From Candidatus Peribacteraceae bacterium (lineage in GTDB: Bacteria > Patescibacteriota > Gracilibacteria > Peribacterales > Peribacteraceae), in the NCBI GenBank assembly GCA_028711445.1, contig JAQTSD010000011.1, positions 1 through 38,380 of the forward strand: a DNA stretch of 38,380 nucleotides. Direction: 5' to 3'. The notes under the pieces were generated by a model. It was not told where the DNA came from. It was given only the letters and a program-made list of their open reading frames with translations, and ran no database searches. Shown piece after piece: positions 1,575-24,775 of the stretch. A program made the position numbers and the translations under genes. Each line of letters starts with the position of its first letter. Positions within the stretch are counted from its first letter, which is position 1.

Positions 1575-3254
1575 TCAGTATACCTCCTTCAGGTAGCACT
1601 CCTCGCAATACACAATCTCGGGTCGCTCCGGGCTGTATGTTGTCTCGATCCCCTTCCCGCACTTTTGGCACGTGCGGCTCCAGAGGTGACGGGGATTCCT
1701 GAGCTGCATGCGCCGACGATGCCGGCAATCGTGGCAAGACAAGGGAATCGGCAGGAGCATCTCCCGATAGAAGCGAAGTTCTTGAGGAATGATCCTGAAA
1801 TTCCTCCCGCACGTTGCGCAGGCGAGGGCCTCCTGCAGGATGTCGTCCTTGACCGCGCGGATGTCTGGGGGAACCGCGTGTTTGTTGGGAGAGAATCCCC
1901 TCTCCTCCGCCTCCCTCCATCGCCATTTGCGCTTAATGATCTCATCTTTCGTGAGGGAGAAATACTCCTGCGCGACAGACTCGTTGTAGGCGAATGGAGA
2001 GCGAACGGCAGGGAGGAACTCCCCCCACGTACCGTCCTTGACCATCTGCTCAATGATCTTCTGGGCCAGCTTCTCATACTCCTCTTTCGTGTACTGCTTG
2101 TTGAGAATGCAGTGGCGCTTGTGCTTGAGGCTGACGCAGCCGAAGAGATCCGCGGAATTATTGTGACAGCAGTCGCTATAGAGAAGATCTCTCCCCTCCG
2201 CACAGATGTGGCAGAAGAGAAGATGATATCCCGCCATCCCCGCGTGCAGCTCGTAATTAAGCTGACTCTGCACCAGCCAGCCATGCTCGTAGGTATCCAT
2301 GGAGTCCTTGTTCTTCCCTGAATCGTAAATGTACGCGCTGTCTTCCACGTCACGGCAGTTGAAGCAGTGCTTCACGTTCTTGCAGTTGTAGAGATCGTCT
2401 CCGGATACGGAAGTGCAGTTGATCTGCAGCGCGAAGCGATGGGGGAACGTGAATTTGAAGGCGCGCCACTTCTCCCTGAAGGCGGCGAACGCTTCGGGAG
2501 AGGTGAAGAGTTCCTCCTTCAGACGCACATACTCTTCCTCTGAGACGGGCCGGTTGAACACATGCAGTTCCTTCTGGCGCAGCCCCACGCAGCCGATGCA
2601 CCGCTCGCACCCCTTGCACTCGTAGCAGAAGAGACTGTCACGGCAATTCTGGCAGGATTGAGAGAAGGAAGTCCCGAAGCAGTGCAAGCAGTACGAACAT
2701 TCGTAGCATCGCTCGCAGTATTCGCAGTACATCGAGTCCACCACGTTCTTGCTCTCCAGCACCCAGTGACCGTAGTAGCAATCCTCGCACTTGCCGAGCG
2801 CCACGCCCATGTAACAATTCTTATTGTTGGCCGAATGGCTCGTGTAGATGCAATTCTCGCTGTGCAGGTTGAAGAGGTACAGGCGGGGGACACGCAGCCG
2901 CAGCTCAGTGAGCTGCTCGAGAAATGGCCGCGTGAAATCAACGTCCGTCCCGTACTCCAGCGCATCCCATTGGTCCCCCCACCAGCATTCGTAGCAGTAG
3001 ACCTTGTACGGGGAATCCGGCGCATACATGGACACGATGGACTTCCCGCACAGGTCGCAGGTATCCCGATACAGCTGACGCTCATTGCGCCACGCGAGGC
3101 GCCGCTGCTGCCGGCAGTCGGGACAGAGGGTGGGCGGAGGAATCGTGTACTTCCTGCCCCCGAAGACGGGAGCGAGATCGCCTAAGAGCTTCAGATCGCT
3201 TTGCGTGACCTCGAAAGGTTGGTGACACCAGGGATTGGCACAGGTGCGCTGCAT
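1575..3254 (-). CDS. P2: cysteine-rich multi-zinc-ribbon protein with all four ribbons intact
   Basis: 559 residues and 43 cysteines from the ATG at 3254 (MQRTCANPWC). An in-frame start at 3278 is less likely because it would cover the TATACT box at 3263-3268. P2 appears to be the least decayed member. All four ribbon-like pairs keep their cysteines: CANPWC/CPDC, CDLCGK/YCYEC, CATCGR/CHDCR and CQKCGK/YCEEC. Its first central module carries a six-cysteine ladder (YCEYCERCYECSYCLHC). The linker near residue 410 reads WGEFLP...SPFAYNES. The last codons, ending GTA TAC TGA, also contain the TATACT box placed 8 nt before P1. The function is not known; P2 would be a good reference for the ancestral architecture. 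Confidence 0.88.
   Translation of the reverse strand: MQRTCANPWCHQPFEVTQSDLKLLGDLAPVFGGRKYTIPPPTLCPDCRQQRRLAWRNERQLYRDTCDLCGKSIVSMYAPDSPYKVYCYECWWGDQWDALEYGTDVDFTRPFLEQLTELRLRVPRLYLFNLHSENCIYTSHSANNKNCYMGVALGKCEDCYYGHWVLESKNVVDSMYCEYCERCYECSYCLHCFGTSFSQSCQNCRDSLFCYECKGCERCIGCVGLRQKELHVFNRPVSEEEYVRLKEELFTSPEAFAAFREKWRAFKFTFPHRFALQINCTSVSGDDLYNCKNVKHCFNCRDVEDSAYIYDSGKNKDSMDTYEHGWLVQSQLNYELHAGMAGYHLLFCHICAEGRDLLYSDCCHNNSADLFGCVSLKHKRHCILNKQYTKEEYEKLAQKIIEQMVKDGTWGEFLPAVRSPFAYNESVAQEYFSLTKDEIIKRKWRWREAEERGFSPNKHAVPPDIRAVKDDILQEALACATCGRNFRIIPQELRFYREMLLPIPLSCHDCRHRRRMQLRNPRHLWSRTCQKCGKGIETTYSPERPEIVYCEECYLKEVY
1577..1582 (-). promoter_or_regulatory. TATACT box before P1, inside the 3' end of P2
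   Basis: TATACT ends 8 nt before the P1 ATG. It is formed by the last codons and stop of P2 (GTA TAC TGA). If used as a -10 element, transcription would start at or next to the ATG, giving a leaderless mRNA. No good -35 was found. Confidence 0.45.
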
Positions 3255-3262
3255 GGGAGGGA

Positions 3263-3268
3263 AGTATA
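3263..3268 (-). promoter_or_regulatory. TATACT box before P2
   Basis: TATACT lies 8 nt upstream of the P2 ATG (3254), in non-coding DNA between P2 and the hairpin at 3272-3357. The short space to the ATG is pyrimidine-rich (TCCCTCCC). Confidence 0.5.
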
Positions 3269-3271
3269 GGC

Positions 3272-3357
3272 GTGTCACCCTGAGCCTGTCGAAGGGTCGA
3301 CACGCTGGGCTCGCAATGCGTCACAAGCTTCGTGGTTCGACAGGCTCACCATGACAC
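3272..3357. repeat. Inverted-repeat element between P2 and P3
   Basis: Perfect 13-bp arms TGAGCCTGTCGAA (3281-3293) and TTCGACAGGCTCA (3336-3348), framed by GTGTCA/TGACAC. The core matches the GAGCCTGTCGAA hairpin family that is dispersed in many bacterial genomes. It could act as a two-way transcription stop. Confidence 0.65.
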
Positions 3358-3373
3358 ATTGCTCGCCCTGTGC

Positions 3374-5071
3374 TCAGTACACTTCTTTCAAGTAGCACTC
3401 CTCACAGAAGACAATTTCCGGTCTCTCCGGTGCATACGTGGTCTGGATTGCTTTCTGGCATTTCATACACTTCCTGCCCCAGAGTTTACGGGGATTTCGC
3501 AATGCCAGCCGCCGATCGTAACGCTCGTCGGGATGGAGGTGAGGAATCGAGAGCTTCATTTGCCGGTAGAATCCAAGCTCCTGTTTGGTGATCTTGAAAG
3601 GCCGCCCCGTGACTTCGCATTGGATGGCCCAATTCAGGATGTCGTCGGGAATATCATCAATGGAATTGGGAAGTTCGGCCGCGAGAATGACCTTGTTCGC
3701 TTTCGGCATCTCATCTTTTTGCTCTCTCCACTTCCAGCCCCTGTTCAACACTTCTCCCTTCGTCATCGGGAAGTATTCCTGGGCAACCGTTTCGTTGTAA
3801 GCGAAGGGGCTCATTGAAACCGGAAAGAACTCTCCCCAATCATCTGTTTTTCGCATATGCTTGATGGTTTGCGACACCAGTCTCTCGTATGCTTCCTTGG
3901 TGTACTGTTTATTCAAGATGCAATACTGCCTGTGTCGTAAACCCACGCAACCGAAACAATGCTGACAGGCAAAGCAATGATCGCAATAGAGAAGCTCGGC
4001 GCTGCCGTCCCAGCAAAAATTACTGAAGGAATTGTGGTAGGCGTTGAGACACTGGCTCATGGAATCGTAGCAGAGCTCCGCCGGCCATCCGGTGATGTAG
4101 CAATCTCTGCTATCCTTCAGCCCCTCGGCCAGCGTCACGTACTTGAGATCCCTGCTCTCGTCGACCTCGAAGCAGTGGAAACAGTTCTGTGAGTTGGTGA
4201 TGTAGTCGCCGATGCACTCCTCTGAGGCGAGGATACGGGCATACCGATGAATAGATTTGAGGAGAATGTCATTTCTGAAACGTCGTGCGTGCTCCTGCAT
4301 ATGAGAAAAGTGGCCTGTCTGCACTTCCTGCATGTGTGCCTGATAATCGCCCGGTGAGAGCTGTTCATTGAGAAAGCAATGATGTTTGTTCCGAAGTCCT
4401 GCGCACCCGAAACAATCGGAGCAACCCTGGCAGTCGTAACACAACCAGCAGTTGTTACATCCCTGCAGGTTCTGGGAGAAGAAGCAGCGATTGCACCGTT
4501 CGGAATACATCAATTCGTAGCACTGTTCGCAGAGATTCAACTTGAGACAATCCACGCAATTCTTCGAGCGAATGACCACATTCCCGTACTCACAATCCTC
4601 GCAATACCCTCCTCCGAAACACATGAAGCAATTCTTGTCGTCGTATTCGATATTCACGTAGTCGCAGTTCTGCTCGCAGAGGACATTATGGAGAGAGGCG
4701 ACAGGTACTACGCGAAGCAACGCCGCAAATTGATCGAGAAAGGAGGCAGTAAGCGCAATGTCGCGCCCATAGTTCAACGGATCCCACTCATCACTCCACC
4801 ATTTCTTCTGCTGGTAGACGGGAAAAGGCTTCTCGGCCGAATACATAGAAATGATCGATTCGCCGGTGAGATTGCATGTGCGCTTGTAGAGCGTGCGCTC
4901 GTTGCGCCAGGAAACGCGGCGCTGCATGCGGCAATCCGGGCACAACTTTGGTGGCGGGATGAGCTCTTTTTTCCCTCCGGAAACGGGAGATATCTTCTCA
5001 AGAAACTGAAGGTCGTCCTGCGTGACCTCGAAGGAGGTTTTGCACCAAGGGTTGGCACACGTTTTCTGCAT
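3374..5071 (-). CDS. P3: cysteine-rich multi-zinc-ribbon protein
   Basis: 565 residues from the ATG at 5071 (MQKTCANPWC); 43 cysteines (7.6%). Layout: ribbon 1 C5/C10 with C44/C47; ribbon 2 reduced to C66 (CNLTGES, partner cysteines lost); central module 1 about 130-243 with seven cysteines exactly three residues apart (C205 to C223); central module 2 about 286-396 with a five-cysteine ladder (C363 to C375) and CILNKQYTKEAYE; linker WGEFFP/SPFAYNET about 412-450; ribbon 3 reduced (CEVTGRPF...HLHPDER); ribbon 4 intact (C535, C538, C556, C559). The C-terminal 85 residues resemble the N-terminal 100. A TGC-TATACT extended -10-like element lies 8 nt before the ATG. Function unknown. Confidence 0.88.
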   Translation of the reverse strand: MQKTCANPWCKTSFEVTQDDLQFLEKISPVSGGKKELIPPPKLCPDCRMQRRVSWRNERTLYKRTCNLTGESIISMYSAEKPFPVYQQKKWWSDEWDPLNYGRDIALTASFLDQFAALLRVVPVASLHNVLCEQNCDYVNIEYDDKNCFMCFGGGYCEDCEYGNVVIRSKNCVDCLKLNLCEQCYELMYSERCNRCFFSQNLQGCNNCWLCYDCQGCSDCFGCAGLRNKHHCFLNEQLSPGDYQAHMQEVQTGHFSHMQEHARRFRNDILLKSIHRYARILASEECIGDYITNSQNCFHCFEVDESRDLKYVTLAEGLKDSRDCYITGWPAELCYDSMSQCLNAYHNSFSNFCWDGSAELLYCDHCFACQHCFGCVGLRHRQYCILNKQYTKEAYERLVSQTIKHMRKTDDWGEFFPVSMSPFAYNETVAQEYFPMTKGEVLNRGWKWREQKDEMPKANKVILAAELPNSIDDIPDDILNWAIQCEVTGRPFKITKQELGFYRQMKLSIPHLHPDERYDRRLALRNPRKLWGRKCMKCQKAIQTTYAPERPEIVFCEECYLKEVY

Positions 5072-5079
5072 GGAGAAGA

Positions 5080-5088
5080 AGTATAGCA
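5080..5088 (-). promoter_or_regulatory. Extended -10-like TGC-TATACT before P3
   Basis: TATACT is preceded by TGC, matching an extended -10 element, and ends 8 nt before the P3 ATG. No -35-like hexamer at the normal distance, as expected for extended -10 promoters. Confidence 0.5.
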
Positions 5089-5107
5089 AACATTCAGCGG
5101 CGAATGG

Positions 5108-5288
5108 GGCCGCGCACCGCTCTGTGTCACTCTGAGGAGCCCCGCTGTGTCACCCTGAGTGCCGCCGTGTCGACTCTTCGATACATTCTTTGCTCAGCAC
5201 TAACGCGCCTCGCAAAGAACACTCAGAGTGACACGGCGGTGTATCGAAGGGTCGACCAGCGGGGCGTCACGAAGGGCGGTGCGCGGCC
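5108..5288. repeat. Large inverted-repeat element with crossing arms between P3 and P4
   Basis: Outer arms GGCCGCGCACCGC (5108-5120) and GCGGTGCGCGGCC (5276-5288) are perfect. Inside, 5139-5147 pairs with 5257-5265. Then three arms b (5147-5160), c (5162-5170) and d (5171-5184) pair with b' (5221-5234), c' (5231-5239) and d' (5241-5254), which occur in the same order, not the reverse order of a simple hairpin. The centre TTCTTTGC/GCAAAGAA (5186-5193, 5212-5219) is a normal hairpin. Confidence 0.7.
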
Positions 5289-5290
5289 AA

Positions 5291-6943
5291 TCAATACACT
5301 TCTTTCAAGTAGCACTCCTCGCACAGAATCCTCCCGTCATACTCCTTGGGCCAGCTCGTTTCCGTCTTCTTCCCGCACTTGCCGCACGATACTTCGCGCA
5401 GAGTCCCGTCGAAGGGCACGAGGCGGAAATTCTCTTGCAGCCTGCGCATGTAGAACGTATGCGGCAGCGGTGCGGCGAGATCCTTCGCGAACGCAATGTC
5501 CGCCTCGGCGATCTGGAACGGACGCCGGGCAACGGGATCCCAGAAGACCTTCTTCGGGAGATCGTCAGCCGGCGCATCGCTGCGATCCGGCACGAGGGAG
5601 GCATCGAGTGCATCCATCGCCCGCTGCTCCTTCTCTTCCCACATCCGAAATCCCCTCCTCTTCCCCTCCTCCTTCGTAAGGGGCCAATGGAAGCCGGCTA
5701 AGCTCTCCTCGTACGGATTTGCGGCGAAGTGGGCGGGGAAGAAGTGCCCGTATTCTCCTGTCCTCCTCATCGCGGCAATCACCTCTGTCTTTTTCTTCTC
5801 ATATTCTTCCGGCTCATAGGGTCTGTTGAAGATGTGATACTTCCTGCCCACAAGTCCGCAACACCCGAAGCAATGCTGACACTGGAAACAGTGCGCGCAG
5901 TACTCCATGAACTTGCACTGGATGAGGCCGAAGCCGAAGCGGACGGAGTAGCACTTATCGAGTGCGGAAGAGCTCATGTACACCAATTCATCCTCGTAGA
6001 AATTCACGCAATCCAGGCAATCCTTGGAATGGACGCCTCCGCGCATGCAGTGCATGCAATCTTCGACATCCTGCGTCGCGAAGTAGCACTGGACGGACCG
6101 CCTGCAGCCATCGAGGTAATTGCCCGTCGCGTCCTCCGAGAGGTCGATCAGGAGTGCGCGGTGCCAGGCATCGGTCCGGAGCATGTTCAGGAACTCCGCA
6201 CGAGCCGCCTCGTACGTGCTCCAGGAGTGGAAATCGAATTCCTCGGCCTTCTGCAGGTACTCCTCCTCCGTGTACTGTTGATTGCGAATGCAGTGCCGCT
6301 TGTTGCGCAGGTTGGTGCAGAGAATGCAGTGATCGCAGTTGCGGCAATCGTAGAGGAATGCGCTGTTACTGCACTGCCTGCAATGCAGCGTGAAGAGCGT
6401 CTGGAAGCAGAAAAAGGAAAATATGCAATCGACGGTGCGCTGCGAATCGCACGAGAAAGCTCCGAATTGGGAATCCTTGACCCGCAACATGCGGAAGCAG
6501 TAGCGCAGGTCCTCATCCTCGACCCCCGAGTGGCTGAGGTAGCAGTTCCGGGAGTACCACCAGTCATCCGTGTACTCGCAGTTCTCGTTGCCCGCCCCGA
6601 GATTGTGCGGGATGGGACAGCGCCGGAAGAGTTCCCACATCTGCGGGAAGAGGAGCTTTCCTAGATCCACCTCGGCCTGCGGAGGGTCCGCATGCTTGAC
6701 CCATTCATCCTTGTGCCACACGGGGTAGGGGGAGTCTGAAGAGAAGACCGAGATGATCTGTTTGCCCGTCTTGTCGCACTTCCTCTTGTGGAGCGCCCAG
6801 TGCTGCCAGAAAGCCCCGAGGATCATGAAGCGTGCGACGGGGTGGAGCTCCGGCTCGCCTTCAATGCCCAATTTCTTTCGTAATGCCATCTCCTGGAGGC
6901 TCACATCGAAGGTGCGACCGGTGACGGGGCACGTCTTGGGCAT
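5291..6943 (-). CDS. P4: diverged cysteine-rich paralogue, sister of P5
   Basis: 550 residues, 34 cysteines, ATG at 6943 (MPKTCPVTGRTFD). With P5 it forms a subgroup in which the N-terminal ribbon has lost its CPDC half and reads ELHPVARFMILGAFW instead. The linker is also changed (GHFFPAHFAANPYEES). Only the last ribbon is complete (CGKCGKK...LCEECYLKEVY). The central ladder is retained (YCAHCFQCQHCFGCCG). Long stretches of DNA are identical to P5: 110 nt at the 3' end (5304-5413 versus 6964-7073) and 93 nt in the middle (5835-5927 versus 7495-7587), with divergent sequence between. This points to a fairly recent duplication or gene conversion. P4 starts 7 nt after the stop of P5. Confidence 0.86.
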   Translation of the reverse strand: MPKTCPVTGRTFDVSLQEMALRKKLGIEGEPELHPVARFMILGAFWQHWALHKRKCDKTGKQIISVFSSDSPYPVWHKDEWVKHADPPQAEVDLGKLLFPQMWELFRRCPIPHNLGAGNENCEYTDDWWYSRNCYLSHSGVEDEDLRYCFRMLRVKDSQFGAFSCDSQRTVDCIFSFFCFQTLFTLHCRQCSNSAFLYDCRNCDHCILCTNLRNKRHCIRNQQYTEEEYLQKAEEFDFHSWSTYEAARAEFLNMLRTDAWHRALLIDLSEDATGNYLDGCRRSVQCYFATQDVEDCMHCMRGGVHSKDCLDCVNFYEDELVYMSSSALDKCYSVRFGFGLIQCKFMEYCAHCFQCQHCFGCCGLVGRKYHIFNRPYEPEEYEKKKTEVIAAMRRTGEYGHFFPAHFAANPYEESLAGFHWPLTKEEGKRRGFRMWEEKEQRAMDALDASLVPDRSDAPADDLPKKVFWDPVARRPFQIAEADIAFAKDLAAPLPHTFYMRRLQENFRLVPFDGTLREVSCGKCGKKTETSWPKEYDGRILCEECYLKEVY

Positions 6944-6950
6944 GGAAGAC

Positions 6951-8597
6951 TCAGTATACCTCCTTCAAGTAGCACTCCTCGCACAGAATCCTCCCGTCAT
7001 ACTCCTTGGGCCAGCTCGTTTCCGTCTTCTTCCCGCACTTGCCGCACGATACTTCGCGCAGAGTCCCGTCGAAAGGGATGAGACGGAAATTCTCCTGCAG
7101 TCTGCGCATGTAATACGTGTAGGGAAGCGGCACCTTGAGATCCTGCGCGAAGGCGACGTCCTCTTTGAGGATCTGAAATGGGCGTTTTGCAACCGAATCC
7201 CAGTACGGTGTCTCGGTGACAGACTCGTCCGCCTGGTCGCAGCGGTCGGGAACCTGCGAAGCATCCTGCGCACTTGCTTCGCGGACTTCCTTCCCGCTTC
7301 CCATCCGGAAGCCCCTGCGCTCCCCATCCTCCCTGCTCATCGGCCAGTAGAAACCGGAGAGGCTCTCCTCGTAGGAATTGGCGGCGAAGTGCGCGGGAAA
7401 GAACTTCCCGTACTCCTTCGACTTCTTCGTCGCGGCGATGATCTCCGCCCTCTTCTTCTCGTATTCCTCCGGCTCGTAGGGCTTGTTGAGGATATGATAC
7501 TTCCTGCCCACAAGTCCGCAACACCCGAAGCAATGCTGACACTGGAAACAGTGCGCGCAGTACTCCATGAACTTGCACTGGATGAGGTTGTAGCCAAACT
7601 TCACGTTGTAGGAATTATCCTGCACAATCGAGGAACAATACTGAAGCTCCGACTTGTACGGACTTATGCAATCCAGTGCATCACGTGTGATGTGAGTGCG
7701 AAGAATATTCACACAATCCTCACTTCCCCCCGACATGAAATAGCAATTCTCACAATCTTTGCATTCATCTAAGTAATTCCCAAACGATTTTTGTGAACGA
7801 TCGATAAAGAGAGCGCGATGCCAAGCGCTCTTTCGAAGCATCCTGAAAAACTCTGTCTTCGCCTGTTCGTATACAGAACGCGAGCGAAAATCCCAAGCTG
7901 CGACATGCTTCTCATACTCCCCTCTGGTGAGCTGTTGATCCCCAAAGCAATATGACTTGTTGCGAAGGTTTGTGCAGAACATGCAATGTTGGCAATTGCG
8001 ACAGTCGTAGAGAAATGCACTGTCACTGCATTGCCAGCAGTTGAAAGAAAAAAGGACATGAAAACACTGATGGGAATTGATGAGGTCCACACATCGCTCA
8101 CTCTTAAAAGAGTATGTGCAGTACTGCGCCGTGCGTATCGTATCGATGCGATAGCAGTAGCGAAGATCTTCGGACAGAACTCCGGAATGGCAGAGGTAGC
8201 AGTTTTTGCTGTACCACCAGTCGTCCGTGTACTCGCAATTCTCATTCCCGGCTCCCACATTGTGCGGGATGGGGCAACGCTGAAAAAGCTCCCACATCTG
8301 CGGGAAGAGGGGCTTTCCTAGATCCACCTCGGCCTGCGGAGGGTCCGCATGCTTGATCCACTCATCCTTGTGCCACACGGGGTAGGGGCAATCCTGAGAG
8401 AAAACCGAGATGATCTGCTTCCCCGTCTTGTCGCACGTTCGCTTATGCAATGCCCAGTGCTGCCAGAAGGCCCCAAGAATCTGCCAGCGTGCGACGGGGT
8501 GAAGCTCCGGCTCGCCTTCAATGCCCAATTTCTTTCGTAATGCCATCTCCGCAGGTGTCGGCTCGAAGGAGAGGCTGGTGACGGGGCAGATGTGCAT
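6951..8597 (-). CDS. P5: diverged cysteine-rich paralogue, sister of P4
   Basis: 548 residues, 35 cysteines, ATG at 8597 (MHICPVTSLSFEP). The open frame continues 49 codons further upstream, but that part is repeat DNA and a stub of another paralogue, so I reject the long start. A TGC-TATACT box lies 8 nt before the chosen ATG. As in P4, ribbon 1 is degenerate and ribbon 4 is intact (CGKCGKK/CEEC). Central module 1 contains FNCWQCSDSAFLYDCRNCQH and module 2 contains the ladder YCAHCFQCQHCFGCCG. The segment at roughly 7590-7990 is more A+T-rich and differs strongly from P4, while the flanks are nearly identical. The last codons overlap the promoter-like box of P4. Confidence 0.86.
   Translation of the reverse strand: MHICPVTSLSFEPTPAEMALRKKLGIEGEPELHPVARWQILGAFWQHWALHKRTCDKTGKQIISVFSQDCPYPVWHKDEWIKHADPPQAEVDLGKPLFPQMWELFQRCPIPHNVGAGNENCEYTDDWWYSKNCYLCHSGVLSEDLRYCYRIDTIRTAQYCTYSFKSERCVDLINSHQCFHVLFSFNCWQCSDSAFLYDCRNCQHCMFCTNLRNKSYCFGDQQLTRGEYEKHVAAWDFRSRSVYEQAKTEFFRMLRKSAWHRALFIDRSQKSFGNYLDECKDCENCYFMSGGSEDCVNILRTHITRDALDCISPYKSELQYCSSIVQDNSYNVKFGYNLIQCKFMEYCAHCFQCQHCFGCCGLVGRKYHILNKPYEPEEYEKKRAEIIAATKKSKEYGKFFPAHFAANSYEESLSGFYWPMSREDGERRGFRMGSGKEVREASAQDASQVPDRCDQADESVTETPYWDSVAKRPFQILKEDVAFAQDLKVPLPYTYYMRRLQENFRLIPFDGTLREVSCGKCGKKTETSWPKEYDGRILCEECYLKEVY
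6953..6958 (-). promoter_or_regulatory. TATACT box before P4, inside the 3' end of P5
   Basis: Formed by the last codons and stop of P5 (GTA TAC TGA); 9 nt before the P4 ATG. Same arrangement as at P2/P1 and P9/P8. Confidence 0.45.
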
Positions 8598-8605
8598 GGA
8601 TAGAG

Positions 8606-8614
8606 AGTATAGCA
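8606..8614 (-). promoter_or_regulatory. Extended -10-like TGC-TATACT before P5
   Basis: TGC-TATACT ends 8 nt before the P5 ATG at 8597. It supports the short start over the long open frame. It is the edge of the repeat module shared with the P7 upstream region. Confidence 0.5.
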
Positions 8615-8719
8615 AGATTCTTCGTGGTGAGGAGCCCCGCGCTCGTGGTTCGAGACGCACGTCGCTACGCTCCGTGCTCCTCACCATGACGAGCGCGGGG
8701 CGTCTCGAACCATGACATG

Positions 8720-8755
8720 CTAATACACTTCTTTCAGATAGCACTCTTCGCCCAT
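8720..8755 (-). pseudogene. Paralogue 3'-end stub MGEECYLKEVY (copy A)
   Basis: ATG GGC GAA GAG TGC... ending TAG encodes MGEECYLKEVY, the tail of the cysteine-rich family. It is directly joined to the CCCTGAGC...GTCGAATGGG repeat. Either a remnant of a deleted gene or an 11-codon ORF. Confidence 0.65.
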
Positions 8756-8790
8756 TCGACTCACTCCGATCGCTCAGGGTGAAAATTGTT

Positions 8791-8837
8791 TCAGTAGATC
8801 TCTTTCAGATAGCAATTTTCGCAGTACACGATCTCCC
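8791..8837 (-). pseudogene. Paralogue 3'-end stub EIVYCENCYLKEIY
   Basis: The last 14 codons and TGA stop of a P7/P8-like gene, cut off on the left side of the coding strand by unrelated GC-rich DNA. It shows that a further paralogue once lay between P5 and P6. Confidence 0.7.
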
Positions 8838-8922
8838 CCCTTCGTCCCGCAGGCGCGGGACTACGGTGGGCAGGCCGGCCGCTTAAGGTGCACCTGCCGG
8901 CCGTAGCGCCCCATATGAGTGC
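8838..8922. repeat. GC-rich hairpins downstream of P6
   Basis: Contains TCCCGC-AGGC-GCGGGA and a larger imperfect hairpin with CTACGG/CCGTAG and GGCCGGC/GCCGGCC arms. It may stop transcription after P6. No coding potential is seen. Confidence 0.45.
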
Positions 8923-10644
8923 TCAATACACTTCCGCCAGATAACATTGCTCGCAATAAACTATTTCGGGGCGCGAAGGCTGATACGTCGTCTCCATCTC
9001 CTTCCCGCACTTCATGCAGGGGCGGGTCCAGAGGCAACGGGGATTACGCAGCATCATGCGCTGCCGGTGCCGCTCGTCGGGATGGAGGTGTGGAACGGGA
9101 AGGCCGTGAGAGCGATAGAACTCGAGTTCCTTCTTCACGATCCTGAAGGGGCGTCCGGTTATCTCGCAGTGAACAGCCCATTGGAGGACATCATCGGGCA
9201 CCTCGTTGATGCTGGCAGGCAGACTCTGCGCCGGGATAACCTTGGAAACTTGTGCAGCATCATCCGTCTCCTCACGCCAACCAAACCCCCGTGCCCGAGC
9301 CTCCCCGCACGTGAGCGGGAAGTACACTTGCGCCGTCGTCTCGTTATACGCAAACGGAGAGACCCCCGCCGGGAAGAATTCCCCCCATTCGCCCGCTTGC
9401 CCTGTACCGACGCCACTGGGCGTCTGGTACGGGGTCTTTCGCATGTGCTCGATGATCTTGGGCACGAGCTTCTCATACTCCTCCTTCGTGTACTGCTTGT
9501 TCAAGATGCAGTATTTCCCAGGCTTCATACAGACACAGCCACACATGTCCGATCCCGTCTGAATGATGTCGCAATAGAGGAGGTTTCGAGAGCTCCAGGA
9601 TCCGTGCGTGAAGACCGTATTGTAGGAACCGTAGCCGAGGCTCAAGGACTCATATCCGAGTTGTGCATCCGTCGTGTGGCAGACGTCTAAGAGATCCTTG
9701 ATCTGGAATCCCGTGAAGATGTAAGCGCAATCCTCCCCGTACGAAACATCGAAACAATGACGAAGATTGCGCGAATCTTTGAGGTAATCCCCCGTCACGT
9801 TCTCGCAGCTCACCACCTCGCGCGCGCGGTGGATGCTCTGCTGCTTGAGACGGGAAAATTCCTGCAGGATGTCCGCAAGCTTCCCTTGGGCGATACGATC
9901 CAGAATCTCTTTCTTGAGACGTTTATACTCTTCCTGCGGGTACTCTTTGTTTCGGATGTAGTTGCGTTTGTTTCGCAAATTCATGGAAAGCAAACATTCG
10001 GTACAACCCTTGCAATCGAAGAGAAAAGCGCTCGATGAGCAGTTGGTGCAATTCTGGCAGAAGAACGCCGTGTGGCATTTATCGACGTCAACAGCTTCGT
10101 AACAGTAGTGTGATTCGGTGCAGTCGGACGTATCTACGCAACCCACGGACTTGATGACCTGATAGCCATAGAGACAATCCTCGTTGAACTCAGCAGCGAA
10201 GATGAGGTAACAGCTCTTGTTCGACCCGGAGAGATTGATGAAATCCGAATTCTCGTTGTTAATCACATTGAGCGCCAATCTCGGCACCGTGTTCTGCAGC
10301 TCTTTCACCTGAGCGAAAAACGGACGGCTGAAATTCACCTCCCGCCCGAAGTTGACCGGATCATTTTGATCGGACCACCAGCACTCGGTGCAGTAGACGG
10401 GGAACGGACTGCCCGCCGGATACATGGAAATGATGGACTTCTTGCACAGATCACACGTACGCCGGTAGAGGCTGCGCTCATTGCGCCAAAGGAGCCGACG
10501 CTGCTGACGGCAATCGGGGCAGAGCGAGGGCGGCGGGATCTGTTCCTTCTTCCCTGCAAACACCGGCGAGAGCTTCTCAAGGAGGGCGAGGTCGTCTGAG
10601 GTAACCTCGAAACCCGACCGACATTGTGCGCAGATCTTCTGCAT
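8923..10644 (-). CDS. P6: cysteine-rich multi-zinc-ribbon protein
   Basis: 573 residues and 34 cysteines, starting MQKICAQCRSGFEVT at the ATG at 10644. Ribbon 1 has CAQC/CPDC, and ribbon 2 is a full CDLCKK...YCTEC pair as in P1 and P2. Central module 2 has lost most of its ladder (DMCGCVCMKPGKYCILNKQY). A 12-residue insertion (TPYQTPSGVGTG) lies between the EHMRK and GEWGEFFP motifs. Ribbon 3 is reduced (CEITGRPF...HLHPDER). Ribbon 4 is intact and the protein ends YLAEVY. It has its own candidate promoter and lies downstream of the TrmB-like gene on the same strand, separated by 130 nt. Confidence 0.87.
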   Translation of the reverse strand: MQKICAQCRSGFEVTSDDLALLEKLSPVFAGKKEQIPPPSLCPDCRQQRRLLWRNERSLYRRTCDLCKKSIISMYPAGSPFPVYCTECWWSDQNDPVNFGREVNFSRPFFAQVKELQNTVPRLALNVINNENSDFINLSGSNKSCYLIFAAEFNEDCLYGYQVIKSVGCVDTSDCTESHYCYEAVDVDKCHTAFFCQNCTNCSSSAFLFDCKGCTECLLSMNLRNKRNYIRNKEYPQEEYKRLKKEILDRIAQGKLADILQEFSRLKQQSIHRAREVVSCENVTGDYLKDSRNLRHCFDVSYGEDCAYIFTGFQIKDLLDVCHTTDAQLGYESLSLGYGSYNTVFTHGSWSSRNLLYCDIIQTGSDMCGCVCMKPGKYCILNKQYTKEEYEKLVPKIIEHMRKTPYQTPSGVGTGQAGEWGEFFPAGVSPFAYNETTAQVYFPLTCGEARARGFGWREETDDAAQVSKVIPAQSLPASINEVPDDVLQWAVHCEITGRPFRIVKKELEFYRSHGLPVPHLHPDERHRQRMMLRNPRCLWTRPCMKCGKEMETTYQPSRPEIVYCEQCYLAEVY

Positions 10645-10652
10645 GCGCAGCT

Positions 10653-10680
10653 ATTATGCGTACATCTTTTGACTATGCAA
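10653..10680 (-). promoter_or_regulatory. Candidate promoter of P6
   Basis: TTGCAT (10675-10680), 16 nt, CATAAT (10653-10658), then 8 nt to the P6 ATG. The -10 position relative to the ATG is the same as for the TATACT boxes of the other paralogues. Confidence 0.5.
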
Positions 10681-10774
10681 TGAATGCATCACTCGCTGCA
10701 TGTGAATGATGAATCGTGGCTTCCTGTAGCCATCCAACATACAAAAATATTTTCACCGTCCTGCGAACATTTTC

Positions 10775-11572
10775 TCAGGCACCGACTCCCGAATCCCAGA
10801 GCTGTTCGAACTGCTTGCGATGGACATTCACGAGCTCCGGATGACGGATGACCACGACCCGCGGGTTATCTGTGTCGCAAATGAAGTGCGCAACGTAATC
10901 CTTCGTGAAGCCGAGATAGTCCTTCGCCACGGGAATCGAATCGATCAGCCGGGTGGTACGCAATTCCTGCAAGTCCCGCTTCGCGAAGGTTTCCGACTCG
11001 GGAGAGTGCGTATTGAAGACACGACAATACATATTCTTGCTAAAACGTTTATGTCGGAATGCCAGTTCTTCAGGCGCTTCATCAGACATACCCGCAACTT
11101 TCCAATAATTCTGCATGGATCCCATGCAGAGGAACTCGTCAGCGCAGAGATCGGGAAGCTTAAGATACTCCCCACGGAACGCATCCAGTCCTTCGAGAAC
11201 CTCGATGGGTTCTTCCTCGCCGCGTGCGTGTTCCCCGGAGTGAGCATCGATGAACGGCAGGAACCGATCGAGCTTCTGGAGCGCCAGCTGCAGGCGGCGA
11301 ATCCCCCGCTCCTTCGCCCCCAATCGTTGGATGAGGGCTTCGAGTGTGAGCGGCGTATACACGGAGAGCTTCTGATTCACCTTCAGCGCCTGCACCAGCC
11401 CCTGATTCTCCAACCGCTTCATCGTCCGGTACGCGGTCATGAGATGTATGCCGCTCTCTTGGGCAAGCTCCCCGATCGTCGCACGATGGAGCTTGAGCAG
11501 AAGGAGGTACAACGTGATCTCCTCCTCGCGAAGGCCAGCCAGACTCAGGAGTTGCTGAATTTTTCGACGCAT
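10775..11572 (-). CDS. TrmB-like HTH transcriptional regulator
   Basis: 265 residues from the ATG at 11572. The frame extends to 11695, but the extra sequence covers the promoter and is not conserved-looking. Residues about 1-70 form a winged helix of the TrmB type (LREEEITLYLLLL, then IGELAQESGIHLMTAYRTMK, then LENQGLV). A short helical linker follows, then a C-terminal domain about 120-260 (IEVLEGLDAFRGEYL...ECMGSM-like strand, KRFSKNMYCRVF) similar to the effector-binding part of such regulators. It is divergent from livG (121 nt apart) and lies upstream of P6 on the same strand, so it may control the transporter, P6 or both. The effector is unknown. Confidence 0.75.
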   Translation of the reverse strand: MRRKIQQLLSLAGLREEEITLYLLLLKLHRATIGELAQESGIHLMTAYRTMKRLENQGLVQALKVNQKLSVYTPLTLEALIQRLGAKERGIRRLQLALQKLDRFLPFIDAHSGEHARGEEEPIEVLEGLDAFRGEYLKLPDLCADEFLCMGSMQNYWKVAGMSDEAPEELAFRHKRFSKNMYCRVFNTHSPESETFAKRDLQELRTTRLIDSIPVAKDYLGFTKDYVAHFICDTDNPRVVVIRHPELVNVHRKQFEQLWDSGVGA

Positions 11573-11579
11573 CGCAGAC

Positions 11580-11607
11580 AGTATAGAGTAGGAAAAAAGA
11601 ATGTAAA
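11580..11607 (-). promoter_or_regulatory. Candidate promoter of the TrmB-like gene
   Basis: TTTACA (11602-11607), 16 nt, TATACT (11580-11585), then 7 nt to the ATG at 11572, again a leaderless layout. A perfect TTGACA also lies at 11615-11620 but at poor spacing for this -10. Confidence 0.5.
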
Positions 11608-11693
11608 GAATATTTGTCAACCAGTACCCCGCGGCCTCTCTTCGGAGAGTCCACAACTGGATACGAAGAAGGGAATGCGGAATACTGGACGTC

Positions 11694-12437
11694 ATGACTG
11701 CCGAGCCTCTCCTCTCCGTTTCGCATCTCTCGCTGCGGATTCAAGATCACACGATCCTCAAGGATATTTCATTGGAAGTGCAAGCCGGGGAAGTCGTTGG
11801 GCTCATCGGACCGAACGGCTCGGGGAAGACCACACTCTTCAACGTGCTCTCCGGATTTCTGAAGCCGACGAAGGGAACCGTATGCCTCTGTGGAGAAGAT
11901 ATCACGCACCTCTCCGCGCCACTCCGGGCTCGCAAGGGAATCGGCCGGGTCTTTCAGGATTTCGGCATCTTCCGTGACATGACCCTCCTCGAAAACATCC
12001 TTGTCGCCTTCGAGTCGCTCACGACGGATGAACGACGGAAGATCGGGGATCTGCGCTCCGCCACGCAGGAAACACTCGCGATGGTTCAGCTCCAGCACTT
12101 CGCGAAGAAGAAGGCGGGGTCGCTCTCCGGCGGACAGATGCGTCTCCTTGAAATCGCGCGGACTTTCAAAGGCAACAAGAGTCTCCTCCTTCTCGATGAG
12201 CCAACGGCCGGCGTCTCCCCCAAGATGACACATCAGATCGCCGACCTCATTCGCTCCCTCAGGCGAGAAGGTAGAACAGTGCTCATTATCGAACATGACC
12301 TCCCTTTCATCGCGAAGATCTGCGACCGCATCATCGTTCTCGACGTCGGAGAGGTGGCGCTGGAAGGGTCGCCGTCGGAAGTGCAATCTTCCAAGAAGCT
12401 CAAAGAGATCTACTTCGGCGCGGATCCGACCACGTAG
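11694..12437 (+). CDS. livG: ABC transporter ATP-binding protein, LivG type
   Basis: 247 residues. Walker A GPNGSGKT (39-46), Q-loop glutamine at 88 (VFQDF), signature LSGGQ (144-148), Walker B LLLLDEP (164-170) and H-loop His201 are all present. The short branched-chain-type features (GIGRVFQDFGIFRDMTLLENI and the HDLPFIAKICDRIIVLD region) place it with LivG rather than LivF. It should energise import through LivH/LivM at the inner face of the membrane. In typical systems a second ATPase, LivF, forms the heterodimer; none is in this window, so LivG may work as a homodimer. A 332-nt spacer with a repeat element separates it from livK. Confidence 0.85.
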   Translation: MTAEPLLSVSHLSLRIQDHTILKDISLEVQAGEVVGLIGPNGSGKTTLFNVLSGFLKPTKGTVCLCGEDITHLSAPLRARKGIGRVFQDFGIFRDMTLLENILVAFESLTTDERRKIGDLRSATQETLAMVQLQHFAKKKAGSLSGGQMRLLEIARTFKGNKSLLLLDEPTAGVSPKMTHQIADLIRSLRREGRTVLIIEHDLPFIAKICDRIIVLDVGEVALEGSPSEVQSSKKLKEIYFGADPTT

Positions 12438-12482
12438 GTTCGCAGAAATATCACCTGTATGAGTACGCTATTTGAGCGGGCT

Positions 12483-12690
12483 GGCGCGCCACGGGCGGTG
12501 AAGGAGAAGGCCCTGCTGTCCTGCGCATGTGGGACGCCGACGAGTCGACCTCGAATCCTTAGGAGGGGTCGACGAGGAGGCACAGGGCCGGGCGGAGGAG
12601 CGGAGGCATCGCCGGCGTTTTGCCCGCCCGAACGTACCGACGTTCGGTACGGGCGGGGCACCACCTTTGTCGCCGGACAAAGGTGGCAAT
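12483..12690. repeat. Structured ~210-bp repeat, copy 1 (between livG and livK)
   Basis: Fills most of the 332-nt gap between livG and livK. Matches 25548-25770. Near-identical core from CGGAGGCATCGCC onwards includes CCCGCCC...GGGCGGG with an inner GAACGT-ACCG-ACGTTC hairpin, and a perfect 11-bp hairpin CCACCTTTGTC-GCCG-GACAAAGGTGG (12661-12686). The left half varies but keeps complementary arms. Could be a mobile palindromic element or an RNA. Confidence 0.7.
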
Positions 12691-12713
12691 GAGACAAATA
12701 CACCACGAAGAAC

Positions 12714-12742
12714 TTGTCAATCCATCGGTATTGCAGCACAAT
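12714..12742 (+). promoter_or_regulatory. Candidate promoter of livK
   Basis: TTGTCA (12714-12719), 17 nt, CACAAT (12737-12742), 27 nt before the livK ATG. It would allow the livKHM part to be expressed apart from livG. Confidence 0.4.
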
Positions 12743-12769
12743 CACCCATGAATTTTCCCTCGAATACCT

Positions 12770-13882
12770 ATGAAACGCCTTCTCACGCTCTCCCTGCTCA
12801 CACTCTTTCTCGCAGCCTGCAAAGGGACCACGACGACGGAGCCCATCAAGGTCGGCTTCATCGGTCCCTTGACCGGTGAAGTCTCCGCGCTCGGTAAAGA
12901 CATCCTGCATGGAGCACAAATCAAGTTGGATGAAATCAATGCCACCGGCGGGATCTCCGGACAGCAAGTTGTCCTCATTGCCGAAGACGGCCGCTGCAAC
13001 GCAACCGATGCGGCAAGTGCGGCGCAGAAACTCGTGCAAGTGGACAAGGTGGTCGCCATCCATGGAGGAGAGTGCAGCGCCGAGACGATTGCAGCAGCGC
13101 CGATCGCGGAAGCAGCCAAAGTGGTGATGCTCTCTCCCTCCTCGAGCAGTCCGGACGTGACGAAGGCCGGTGATTTCATTTTCCGCGACTATCCGAGTGA
13201 TGCTCTCAAGACCCAAGCCATGGCCAAGTATTTTAGCAATAAGGAACTGACGAAAGTCGCCATCATTGCAGAGAATTCCGACTTCACAGTTGGCTTTCGC
13301 GATTCCCTGAAGAAAGATCTCCCGGAAGGCGCGCTTGTCTTCAATGAGACAGTGGATCCGGGGACCAAGGATTTCCGTACGCTCCTGACCCGCCTCAAAG
13401 GAGCCGACATTGACGTGCTCGTCGACGACCTCAATTCCCCGGCGAACATCGCTCTCCTTCTGCAGCAATTCCGCGAACAGGGCTTCAAGCAGCTTGTCAT
13501 CAGTCACGACTTGGGGGACAGTCTCGAGATCCCCAAGCTCATCGGCAAGGCAAGCGAAGGATTCCAAGTCATCAACGTCCCGACTCTGGACCCCTCCGGG
13601 GATTTCGGGGAGAAGTTCATCGGAAAATACGGCGAACCACAGGCCAATCTGGCTTGGGGCGGCTACGGTTATGACGTGATGGGCATCCTCTTACAGGCAA
13701 TCTCCTCCGCCGGAACGGATGGCACAGCGATTCGCGATTACCTCTACCAGATGTCATCGTATGACGGTGTAATTGCAAAGGTCTCCTTCGATGAGAATGG
13801 AGACATTCGGGGAATCCCCTACGTGCTTCGCGAAGTGAAGGACGGGATATTCGTCAATGTATCGGACATTACGGTAAACTGA
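12770..13882 (+). CDS. livK: LivK-like substrate-binding lipoprotein
   Basis: 370 residues. The N-terminus MKRLLTLSLLTLFLAAC is a lipoprotein signal with the lipid-anchored cysteine at 17. The mature part is a periplasmic-binding fold of the branched-chain amino-acid family (Peripla_BP_6): KVGFIGPLTGEVSALGKDIL, INATGGISGQQV, then VVAIHGGECSAETIAAAPI and the second-lobe signatures DFRTLLTRLKGADIDVL and AWGGYGYDVM. It would capture a small amino acid or related compound outside the cell and deliver it to LivH/LivM. Substrate cannot be read from the sequence. It is followed after 7 nt by livH. Confidence 0.85.
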   Translation: MKRLLTLSLLTLFLAACKGTTTTEPIKVGFIGPLTGEVSALGKDILHGAQIKLDEINATGGISGQQVVLIAEDGRCNATDAASAAQKLVQVDKVVAIHGGECSAETIAAAPIAEAAKVVMLSPSSSSPDVTKAGDFIFRDYPSDALKTQAMAKYFSNKELTKVAIIAENSDFTVGFRDSLKKDLPEGALVFNETVDPGTKDFRTLLTRLKGADIDVLVDDLNSPANIALLLQQFREQGFKQLVISHDLGDSLEIPKLIGKASEGFQVINVPTLDPSGDFGEKFIGKYGEPQANLAWGGYGYDVMGILLQAISSAGTDGTAIRDYLYQMSSYDGVIAKVSFDENGDIRGIPYVLREVKDGIFVNVSDITVN

Positions 13883-13889
13883 AGGCAGT

Positions 13890-14768
13890 ATGCAGCTCTT
13901 CAGTAACGGTCTCATTGCCGGTTCTCTCGCGGCACTGATCGCAGGAGGACTGGCTCTCGTCTACGGCACGCTCGGTGTTTTCAATCTTGCGCTCGGCCAG
14001 ATGGTCCTCGCAGGGGGGTACGCGACGTGGTGGCTCCACCAGAACGTCGGTCTTTCACTGCCGATAAGCATCGTGGGGGGGATTGCGATCGGGGCGGCAA
14101 TCTCGTGGATGACGTTTGAGATCTTCATTCGGCCTTTTTATAAACGTCATCGTTTCCTCCCTCTCGTCACCACCATCAGTCTCAGCATGATCCTCGATGC
14201 ACTCATCCTGCTCCTGTTTGAAGAGCGCCCGAGGAGCATCCTCGCGAGCATGAAGGACATGCGAATAATTCTCGGTGCAAGTATTAGTACGGAGCAAATC
14301 ATGTTGATTCTCATTACATGCCTCCTCCTCGCCTTCTTCGCTTTCATCCTTCATTGCACTGCATTCGGCAGAAAGCTCAGAGCTGTCGTGCAGAATGATT
14401 TTGCAGCCATGAGTCTGGGCATCCCCGTAGGCACTCTCCATCGACTCATCTTCATCGGAAGCGGTGTCCTTGCGGCTTGTGCAGGCATTTTCATCGGCAT
14501 CGACCAGAATCTTTCCCCCCTTCTCGCCTTCCCGCTGACCATCAAGGCCTACGCCGCGGTGATCGCGGGCGGGAAGGGCAACTTCTGGGGCGCGGTGACC
14601 TGTGCCTATATCATCGCATTTCTCGAACAGCTGGTTGTAGGTATTCGCTGGTTCGGCCTCTTCTACATCCCAGCAGGCTATCAGGATACGGTTGCGCTCG
14701 TTTTCATCATTCTCTTTCTTCTCTTCAAGCCCGCCGGATTGTTCGGCTCGCAAACCCGTACCGCTTAA
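13890..14768 (+). CDS. livH: LivH-like ABC transporter permease
   Basis: 292 residues, strongly hydrophobic with about eight predicted membrane spans. The N-terminus NGLIAGSLAALIAGGLALVY and the early FNLALGQMVLAGGYATWWL segment match the LivH permease family. The cytoplasmic coupling region is around residues 160-185 (KLRAVVQNDFAAMSLGIPVG, with the family's alanine/glycine-rich loop). The C-terminal part (AYAAVIAGGKGNFWGAVTCA) is also typical. It forms the membrane channel with LivM. A purine-rich GAAGG just before the ATG could serve as a ribosome-binding site, which is rare in this window. Confidence 0.85.
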   Translation: MQLFSNGLIAGSLAALIAGGLALVYGTLGVFNLALGQMVLAGGYATWWLHQNVGLSLPISIVGGIAIGAAISWMTFEIFIRPFYKRHRFLPLVTTISLSMILDALILLLFEERPRSILASMKDMRIILGASISTEQIMLILITCLLLAFFAFILHCTAFGRKLRAVVQNDFAAMSLGIPVGTLHRLIFIGSGVLAACAGIFIGIDQNLSPLLAFPLTIKAYAAVIAGGKGNFWGAVTCAYIIAFLEQLVVGIRWFGLFYIPAGYQDTVALVFIILFLLFKPAGLFGSQTRTA

Positions 14769-14774
14769 TGCTCC

Positions 14775-15632
14775 ATGAATTACTTCCTGCACATTTTCAT
14801 CATCTCCTGCATCTATATTCCGCCGATACTGGGGTTCAACCTCGTCTTCGGCAGAGGAAAACTTCTTCACTTCGGTCAGACGGCGTTGGGACTCGCAGGT
14901 GCGTATGGCATCTGGGCATCGTTCATGCTCTTCCATTTCCCCTTCCTCTTGAGCCTTCTCATCGGCGCTGCGTGTGCTCTGTGTATGGCCCTCGTCCTCA
15001 CCTGGCTTTCGCTTCGATTGGATAACGACGGTCTCGGCGTGATGTCCATCGCTTTGCACCTTGCCATTCTTGCCGTCGTGTTGAATTCGGATCGTTTCAC
15101 GCGCGGAGCACTGGGGATTCCCGGTATCCCCCGTCCGCTGCTGCTGCAAAGCTTGCCAGCCTATGCGCTCCTCTGCGCAATGATCGCTGTGTGTTGGATC
15201 ATCTTCATGTTGATCATCGAACGCGGAAAACTCCGCCGAAATCTTCAAGCGCTCGCAGAGAATCATTGGCATGCGGAGGCGATAGGCGTAAATCGCCGCT
15301 GGGTTTACACGATTGCATTTCTGATTTCCGCGCTCGGAGCGCTCACTGCGAATGTCATCTTCGTTCCATACATGGCACTCTTGAGCCCCAGTGATTACGG
15401 TTTCCCCGCTATGATCCTCAATGTCATGATGGTGGTAGCCGGGGGGCCCGGACGCGTGTGGGGAGTCGTCTGTGCGATATTCCTTCTGATGGGTTTGCAC
15501 GAGGGATTGCGCTTCCTCTCGCTCCCAGCGGAAATGCTTGGCCCGACACGCCTGCTCCTCTTCGGCACAATTCTTTTCATTGCCGTTTACTTCCGGCGAG
15601 AAACGCTCTTCCCTCCGGAAAGGAAGGTGTGA
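14775..15632 (+). CDS. livM: LivM-like ABC transporter permease
   Basis: 285 residues with about eight to nine membrane segments. The family motifs LGFNLVFGRGKLLHFGQTAL near residue 20-40 and LGVMSIALHLAILAVVLNSD near 90-110 are visible. A cytoplasmic coupling loop occurs around 155-180 (KLRRNLQALAENHWHAEAIG), followed by the ANVIFVPYMALLSP and GGPGRVWGVVCA segments. The gene follows livH after 6 nt. It is the last gene of the transporter cluster and ends convergent with P7 across an inverted-repeat region. The usual livF, which often follows livM, is absent. Confidence 0.85.
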   Translation: MNYFLHIFIISCIYIPPILGFNLVFGRGKLLHFGQTALGLAGAYGIWASFMLFHFPFLLSLLIGAACALCMALVLTWLSLRLDNDGLGVMSIALHLAILAVVLNSDRFTRGALGIPGIPRPLLLQSLPAYALLCAMIAVCWIIFMLIIERGKLRRNLQALAENHWHAEAIGVNRRWVYTIAFLISALGALTANVIFVPYMALLSPSDYGFPAMILNVMMVVAGGPGRVWGVVCAIFLLMGLHEGLRFLSLPAEMLGPTRLLLFGTILFIAVYFRRETLFPPERKV

Positions 15633-15655
15633 AATTACATAAAATGTTAAAGGCA

Positions 15656-15735
15656 TGTCACCCTGAGCCTGTCGAAGGGTCTCTGTGCTACAAATGGTCT
15701 AGTCTTCGACCAGCTCAGACTGACACATTTGTGGC
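15656..15735. repeat. Crossing inverted repeat between livM and P7
   Basis: Arms x (15656-15677, TGTCACCCTGAGCCTGTCGA...) and x' (15703-15724) pair imperfectly. Arms y (15687-15696) and y' (15726-15735) pair with one mismatch. The order is x, y, x', y'. It lies between convergent genes and may end transcription from both sides. Confidence 0.6.
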
Positions 15736-15755
15736 TTTGAAAGTGCAATGCTGTA

Positions 15756-15791
15756 TCAGTACACCTCTTTCAGATAGCACTCCTCGCCCAT
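15756..15791 (-). pseudogene. Paralogue 3'-end stub MGEECYLKEVY (copy C)
   Basis: 36 nt encoding MGEECYLKEVY and TGA, 71 nt downstream of the P7 stop with the same spacing as in copies A and B. No minus-strand gene follows before livM. Confidence 0.65.
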
Positions 15792-15826
15792 TCGACTCGC
15801 TCCGCTTGCTCAGGGTGAAAATTGCT

Positions 15827-17521: not shown

Positions 17522-17529
17522 CGGAGAGG

Positions 17530-17538
17530 AGTATAGCA
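17530..17538 (-). promoter_or_regulatory. Extended -10-like TGC-TATACT before P7
   Basis: TGC-TATACT ends 8 nt before the ATG at 17521. The surrounding sequence is a near copy of the P5 upstream region. Confidence 0.5.
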
Positions 17539-17643
17539 AGATTCGTCATGGTGAGGAGCCCCGCGCTCGTGGTTCGAGACGCACGTCGCTACGCTCCGTG
17601 CTCCTCACCATGACGAGCGCGGGGCGTCTCGAACCATGACATG

Positions 17644-17679
17644 CTAATACACCTCCTTCAGGTAGCACTCCTCGCCCAT
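17644..17679 (-). pseudogene. Paralogue 3'-end stub MGEECYLKEVY (copy B)
   Basis: 36 nt encoding MGEECYLKEVY and TAG. It differs from copy A at four positions, all synonymous third bases. Lies between P8 and P7. Confidence 0.65.
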
Positions 17680-17714
17680 TCGACTCGCTCCGCTTGCTCA
17701 GGGTGAAAATTGCT

Positions 17715-24711: not shown

Positions 24712-24764
24712 CATGGTGAGCGGAGACGAACCATGACCCTCCCACCCATCCCTCGACTCCGCTC
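24712..24764. repeat. Small crossing inverted repeat in the leader of the TrmB-like gene
   Basis: CATGGT (24712-24717), GAGCGGAG (24718-24725), ACCATG (24730-24735), CTCCGCTC (24757-24764): order u, v, u', v'. It sits between the candidate promoter and the ATG at 24776. Confidence 0.5.
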
Positions 24765-24775
24765 GGGATGACAAA

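Follow-up and report, generated by a model that had tools for sequence, protein, structure and literature searches.

Crossing arms in the window

Do inverted repeats whose arms follow one another as A B C ... A' B' C' fold into pseudoknots or switching hairpins, or does this order have another origin? The question is raised by a window of 38,380 nucleotides (the whole stretch of DNA analysed; contig G000:C18) from a Candidatus Peribacteraceae bacterium, whose genome of 1.25 Mb (G000) is 99.7% complete and is a draft in 45 contigs. An earlier note on this DNA had listed five such elements and judged chance unlikely. We counted pairs of exact arms in crossing order (span ≤190) in the window and in 60 dinucleotide shuffles of it. 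At a minimum arm length of 10 bp, the window had 8 crossing pairs, every one within the 5108, 8619 or 17543 element (Table 1); the shuffles averaged 0.10 and never exceeded 1. Lowering the minimum to 8 bp raised the count to 30 (shuffled mean 13.3, maximum 22). Inverted arms in crossing order are thus real and unlikely to be due to chance.

Three of the five occurrences are strong in this sense, but the arms of those at 15656-15735 and 24712-24764 are only 6-8 bp long. The 8619 and 17543 elements are identical over ~90 bp and are copies of each other, which reduces the independent strong cases in the window to about two. We also found a sixth element, at 3270, that the note had missed.

Table 1. 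Palindromic elements of the window, their parts and their crossing arms
Feature	Position	Strand	Details
Concentric composite, three layers	5108..5288	.	From arm listing, folding and parsing of copies
5108 element, outer 13-bp stem	5108-5120/5276-5288
5108 element, outermost unit, left end	5124-5136
5108 element, stem	5139-5147/5257-5265
5108 element, second unit	left end from 5147; right end ~5243-5256		Left end GTGTCACCCTGAG
5108 element, stem	5162-5169/5232-5239
5108 element, innermost inverted unit	~5173-5234		Tip stem 5186-5193/5212-5219
5108 element, crossing arms	5124-5136/5222-5234, 5139-5147/5257-5265, 5162-5171/5230-5239, 5176-5185/5240-5249
Nested head-to-head dimer	8619..8716	.	G001 orthologous gap without such element
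8619 element, parts			Outer left end 8621-8631; stem 8634-8646/8689-8701; inner inverted unit 8646-8689; outer right end 8700-8716
8619 element, crossing arms	8625-8635/8676-8686, 8634-8646/8689-8701, 8646-8658/8700-8712
Nested head-to-head dimer, copy of 8619 element	17543..17640	.
17543 element, parts			Outer left end 17545-17555; stem 17558-17570/17613-17625; inner inverted unit 17570-17613; outer right end 17624-17640
17543 element, crossing arms	17543-17559/17600-17616, 17558-17570/17613-17625, 17570-17582/17624-17636
Decayed adjacent head-to-head dimer	15656..15735	.	Unit 1 (+) ~15657-15681; unit 2 (-) ~15690-15732
Adjacent head-to-head dimer	24712..24772	.	Unit 1 (+) 24712-24735, TGG type; unit 2 (-) 24747-24772
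Adjacent head-to-head dimer (sixth element)	3270..3357	.	Unit 1 (+) 3270-3305, CCC type; unit 2 (-) ~3332-3357, TGG type

One repeat unit in two layouts

Copies from the whole genome showed that all elements share one unit, a quasi-palindrome of 25-50 nt, GTCAxxxTGAG...CGAAx'x'x'TGAC, in which the triplet xxx pairs with x'x'x'. The middle of the unit varies from a few nucleotides (TCATCCTGAGCTCGTCGAAGGATGA) to a longer stem (TCATGGTGAGGAGTGCTGAGCGTAGCGAAGCACGTCTCGAACCATGA). The unit pattern had 24 matches in G000 and none with the reversed-pattern control; this and the other copy counts rest on pattern searches and are lower bounds. In the adjacent layout (3270, 15656 and 24712 type), two units of opposite orientation lie ~10-25 nt apart. 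The nested layout (8619 and 17543 type) has an extra stem, GCCCCGCGCTCGT/ACGAGCGCGGGGC, whose arms enclose a second, inverted unit within the loop of the first. The adjacent head-to-head dimers were heterodimers in 19 of 19 cases, against 33% homodimers expected from the triplet frequencies, the copies not being fully independent. Around some elements in several genera we observed a further outer inverted repeat with a covarying triplet of its own, GGAACCxxxGAAAAAC...GTTTTTCx'x'x'GGTTCC (loci L009/L134, L020, L022, L142, L145, L149, L170 and L172).

The unit pattern was present in 20 of 40 genomes searched, in many of them with compensatory triplets. A search for the nested layout in 24 genomes gave 143 matches in 15 Peribacteraceae genomes (reversed control: 10) and 28 in nine other members of the class (control: 11), and the nested architecture recurs in eight genomes with differing sequences. 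A pattern for same-orientation nesting matched 31 times across the 15 family genomes (control: 9), mostly at what seem to be chance hits or single units, with a few short cases that do nest in this way (G012:C8:249342, G003:C51:11303, G005:C4:64513). Inverted nesting is therefore strongly preferred, not exclusive. Across 287 Patescibacteria genomes the elements were concentrated in their own family, with scattered REP types of other kinds elsewhere (e.g. G183). No match to the elements was found by blastn in a plasmid collection, or in Rfam.

The conserved pairing is concentric

A nested element reads L1, S1, R2', tip, L2', S1', R1, giving each end two possible partners. Pairing of each unit with itself (L1/R1 and R2'/L2') yields a single concentric hairpin, and pairing of equivalent ends (L1/L2' and R2'/R1, with S1/S1') the order A B C...A' B' C'. 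Since the second unit is an inverted copy of the first, a left end is complementary both to its own right end and to the other left end, and the arms appear to cross.

Folding predicted the concentric hairpin for all three strong elements (z scores -6.8, -6.1 and -8.5). The note's view that no single hairpin could nest all the arms was therefore misleading: every strong element folds as one fully nested hairpin because the two ends of each unit also pair with each other.

For covariation we drew on about fifty nested copies, taken from eight Peribacteraceae genomes and representing 27 distinct triplet combinations. Own-unit triplets were pairable in 75/81 (outer with outer) and 79/81 (inner with inner), the shuffled means being 48.7 and 49.7, and none of 20000 permutations reached the observed value. 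Covarying triplet types include CCC/GGG, TCC/GGA, CTC/GAG, CAC/GTG, TGG/CCA, TGC/GCA, CGC/GCG and TAT/ATA. Crossing triplets were pairable in 49/81 and 54/81 over the same 27 combinations and did not covary. In the main family of G000, the outer and inner units are both of the TGG type, so that triplet covariation is silent there. A perfect stem S1 of 7 bp or more occurred in 88% of copies, compared with 1.4% of combinations of arms from unrelated copies.

Forcing the crossing helix cost a median of 8 kcal/mol for A-A' and 14 kcal/mol for C-C'. In the predicted folds the outer triplet met its own partner in 33 of 50 copies and its crossing partner in 7, six of which came from one G014 family. 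That family is the exception: its predicted minimum-energy fold contains the crossing helix L1-L2, and both folds are nearly equal in energy.

The covariation shows that the conserved structure is the concentric hairpin, with each unit paired to itself. The crossing order simply follows from how the units are arranged, and we found no evidence of a pseudoknot; the crossing arms are a consequence of descent from one unit and not a conserved helix. We accordingly rejected the proposal of pseudoknots or switching hairpins, since the nested pairing covaries, the crossing pairing is largely broken and its energy cost is high. The earlier note had named two observations that would count against its reading, crossing arms without covariation and a frequency equal to that in shuffled sequence. 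The first is what we observed; the second is not, the elements being far commoner than in the shuffles.

Dispersal and turnover

Within families, the bodies of the elements were ~0.7-0.96 identical and their 40-bp flanks 0.54-0.69, a measure for which the background of unrelated sequence is an estimate. Bodies that are alike between flanks close to the unrelated level show, on comparison of sequences, that the elements have been dispersed among intergenic sites. In four of six families, the copies resembled one another less at the tip than in the arms around it, and some copies have a different palindrome in place of the tip (in a G014 family: GGCCAAAGGCC, CTACG, TCCTGCCGGA and CCGCCTGCCTGCCGGCAGGCAGG).

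We compared orthologous sites with G001, a relative within the same genus. The G001 gaps orthologous to the 8619, 17543 and 24712 elements contain no such element, and the segment with the 15656-15735 element is missing from G001; locus L002 holds a better preserved homologue of the latter. At three sites with syntenic flanks (L026, L145 and L146), the layout differs, a nested dimer in one genome facing an adjacent dimer in the other. Comparison of these two genomes thus shows rapid turnover of the elements between genes. No clean empty site with a target duplication could be recognised among the orthologous gaps, their intergenic spacers being too diverged.

A fourth site, L025 (G000:C33:51981 and G001:C5:102564), carries a nested dimer in G000 and a single unit in G001. 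Its ends match plus/plus (23/23 and 22/24), and the whole G001 unit matches the inner unit of G000 plus/minus (46/50). The simplest reading of this one site is that a double template switch via the inverted ends may have converted a nested dimer into its inner unit in opposite orientation; the reverse direction is also possible. As L025 suggests, the crossing arms, acting as short inverted homologies, may make flipping or collapse of the centre possible. A permuting insertion mechanism, which the note had offered as an alternative, retains some ground here: inverted copies of one unit, nested within each other, produce the order, and at this orthologous site the centre is inverted.

Gene context and candidate movers

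Outside called ORFs, 23 copies lay in convergent, 33 in co-directional and 8 in divergent gaps, an orientation bias to be taken as indicative, since this crude survey considered just the longest ORFs and assigned 31 copies to ORF interiors, many of them probably spurious. In the window, the 24712-24772 element immediately precedes the start codon of a TrmB-like gene.

The window also contains about eleven tandem paralogues of 530-597 aa on the minus strand (1575-24589), whose relatives are found almost exclusively in Patescibacteria genomes. Four of the five that were searched had no Pfam match, and one had a weak match, below cut-off, to a treble-clef zinc finger (PF23477). An extended -10 motif, TGCTATACT, lies on the minus strand at 5080-5092, 8605-8616 and 17529-17540, immediately upstream of paralogue start codons and directly adjoining palindromic elements. 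At paralogue 3' ends (17648-17750, and similarly 8733-8830 and 15757-15860), a REP-like insert adjoins a doubled C-terminal coding end, and there is an exact 12-bp fold-back, GTGAAAATTGCT/AGCAATTTTCAC, at 17703-17714/17735-17746, as if from template switching; G001 has a similar arrangement. A stretch of ~4.2 kb with branched-chain amino acid transport genes (11622-15824) is missing in G001, where its flanks are contiguous.

The transposase domain Y1_Tnp (PF01797; RAYT, IS200/IS605) had no match in G000 or G001, the two genomes richest in nested copies, and five control genomes were positive; several other relatives do have it. SbcD (TIGR00619), which forms part of a hairpin nuclease, was undetected in all eight class genomes searched (G000-G004 and G024-G026) and matched in 13 of 14 controls, which may let long palindromes persist.

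Explanations for the elements

We regard it as very probable that the elements are REP-like units in head-to-head or nested inverted arrangement, with a conserved concentric fold and crossing order as a by-product, dispersed, turning over fast and probably non-autonomous. Their spread would depend on mobilisation in trans or on copying through template switches as the DNA is replicated.

Retention of the elements as transcription terminators or 3'-end mRNA stabilisers of adjoining genes is possible, if doubtful. Convergent gaps outnumber divergent ones (23 and 8 in the crude ORF survey), and a T run closes some of the copies (GACGTGTTTTTC in L020, and similarly in L022). However, no T run follows the full hairpin in the window elements, a terminator-like scan of 3000-19000 gave 17 against 13.6 in shuffled sequence, and close relatives differ in the presence of an element at the same gene.

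Somewhat less probable still is the bolder proposal that REP palindromes of Peribacteria, in which SbcD went undetected, change and grow in place from the hairpin centre, with tips exchanged, inverted copies added in the loop, crossing arms serving as inverted homologies for template switches that flip or collapse the centre, and no dedicated transposase; the same gap would then hold different nested forms in sister lineages.

It is unlikely that the elements are classic REP/REPIN elements, GTAG or CGTC tagged and mobilised by a RAYT. As for the REPs in the accessible text of PMC3733652, they are short extragenic palindromes with head-to-head dimers, an excess of heterodimers and a 3'-end location. 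Yet the GTAG tag is absent, as is Y1_Tnp from G000 and G001, and the symmetric GTCA/TGAC ends with the TGAG/CGAA module are unlike the CGTC type described there (unpaired tag, 4-5 bp loop, CCA tail).

Little credence can be given to an RNA switch or pseudoknot in which alternate pairing of the crossing arms in transcripts would regulate neighbouring genes. The crossing arms reach 17 bp in the G000 family, the two folds have near-equal energies in the G014 family and the majority of elements are intergenic; against this, most relatives have mismatched crossing triplets, own-unit triplets covary, the crossing helix carries the median cost of 8-14 kcal/mol given above, Rfam has no match and orthologous genes within the genus lack upstream elements. 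Covariation, folding and orthologue comparisons gave no sign of a dedicated regulatory switch. Chance or assembly artefact, conceivable for palindromes prone to assembly error in a draft of 45 contigs, can be practically dismissed given the same architecture with different sequences in eight genomes and 8 crossing pairs against 0.1 in shuffles.

Comparison with known repeat systems

Our preferred reading places the elements next to the REPs. As far as the open-access literature searched shows, the new aspects are the nested dimer and the Patescibacteria host: we found there no description of REP-type repeats in Patescibacteria and nothing relevant for the unit motif, and the accessible portions of the REP literature examined do not describe a unit inverted inside another. 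Several genomes of the lineage contain some ten or more nested palindromes, the richest of them lack the Y1 transposase, and SbcD is undetectable. Peribacteraceae therefore offer a natural test of whether such repeats require a transposase and why heterodimers are favoured.

In its accessible text, Di Nocera et al. 2013 (PMC3733652) describes GTAG and CGTC REPs that form head-to-head dimers, often near gene 3' ends, states that heterodimer preference has 'no obvious explanation' and reports REPs inside other palindromes in some species. Like the BIMEs and REP dimers of that account, the present elements are short extragenic palindromes in opposite orientation, prefer heterodimers and often lie near gene 3' ends; they have the short palindromic unit, many extragenic copies and alternating head-to-head orientation of REP/BIME repeats. 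Unlike BIMEs as described there, they come from Patescibacteria (Peribacteraceae), carry the second unit in the loop of the first and combine TGAG/CGAA with symmetric GTCA/TGAC ends. Their tens of copies per genome are also fewer than in typical REP-rich genomes.

With the CGTC REPs of the same source, they share a TGTC/CGTC start followed by AT, head-to-head dimers and the lack of a known dedicated transposase. Those REPs are described as having an unpaired CGTC tag, a 4-5 bp loop and a short unpaired tail, mostly CCA, none of which is found in the present units; the ends of the Peribacteraceae unit pair symmetrically and its inner part ranges from a few nucleotides to a long stem. REPINs, in the accessible text of PMC3116915 and PMC2817692, likewise consist of an inverted REP pair as mobile miniature DNA, but the units here end in GTCA/TGAC with no GTAG tag, and the RAYT (Y1_Tnp) is absent from G000 and G001. 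As in MITEs, some copies lie inside a longer inverted repeat (the GGAACC...GGTTCC repeat described above), but neither a target duplication, in diverged orthologous gaps, nor a parent insertion sequence, with Y1_Tnp as the sought partner, was found. The organisation is thus shared with REPs, but the units depart from the tag, loop and tail definitions and the RAYT is absent in the two richest genomes; we therefore assign the elements to a REP/BIME-like class.
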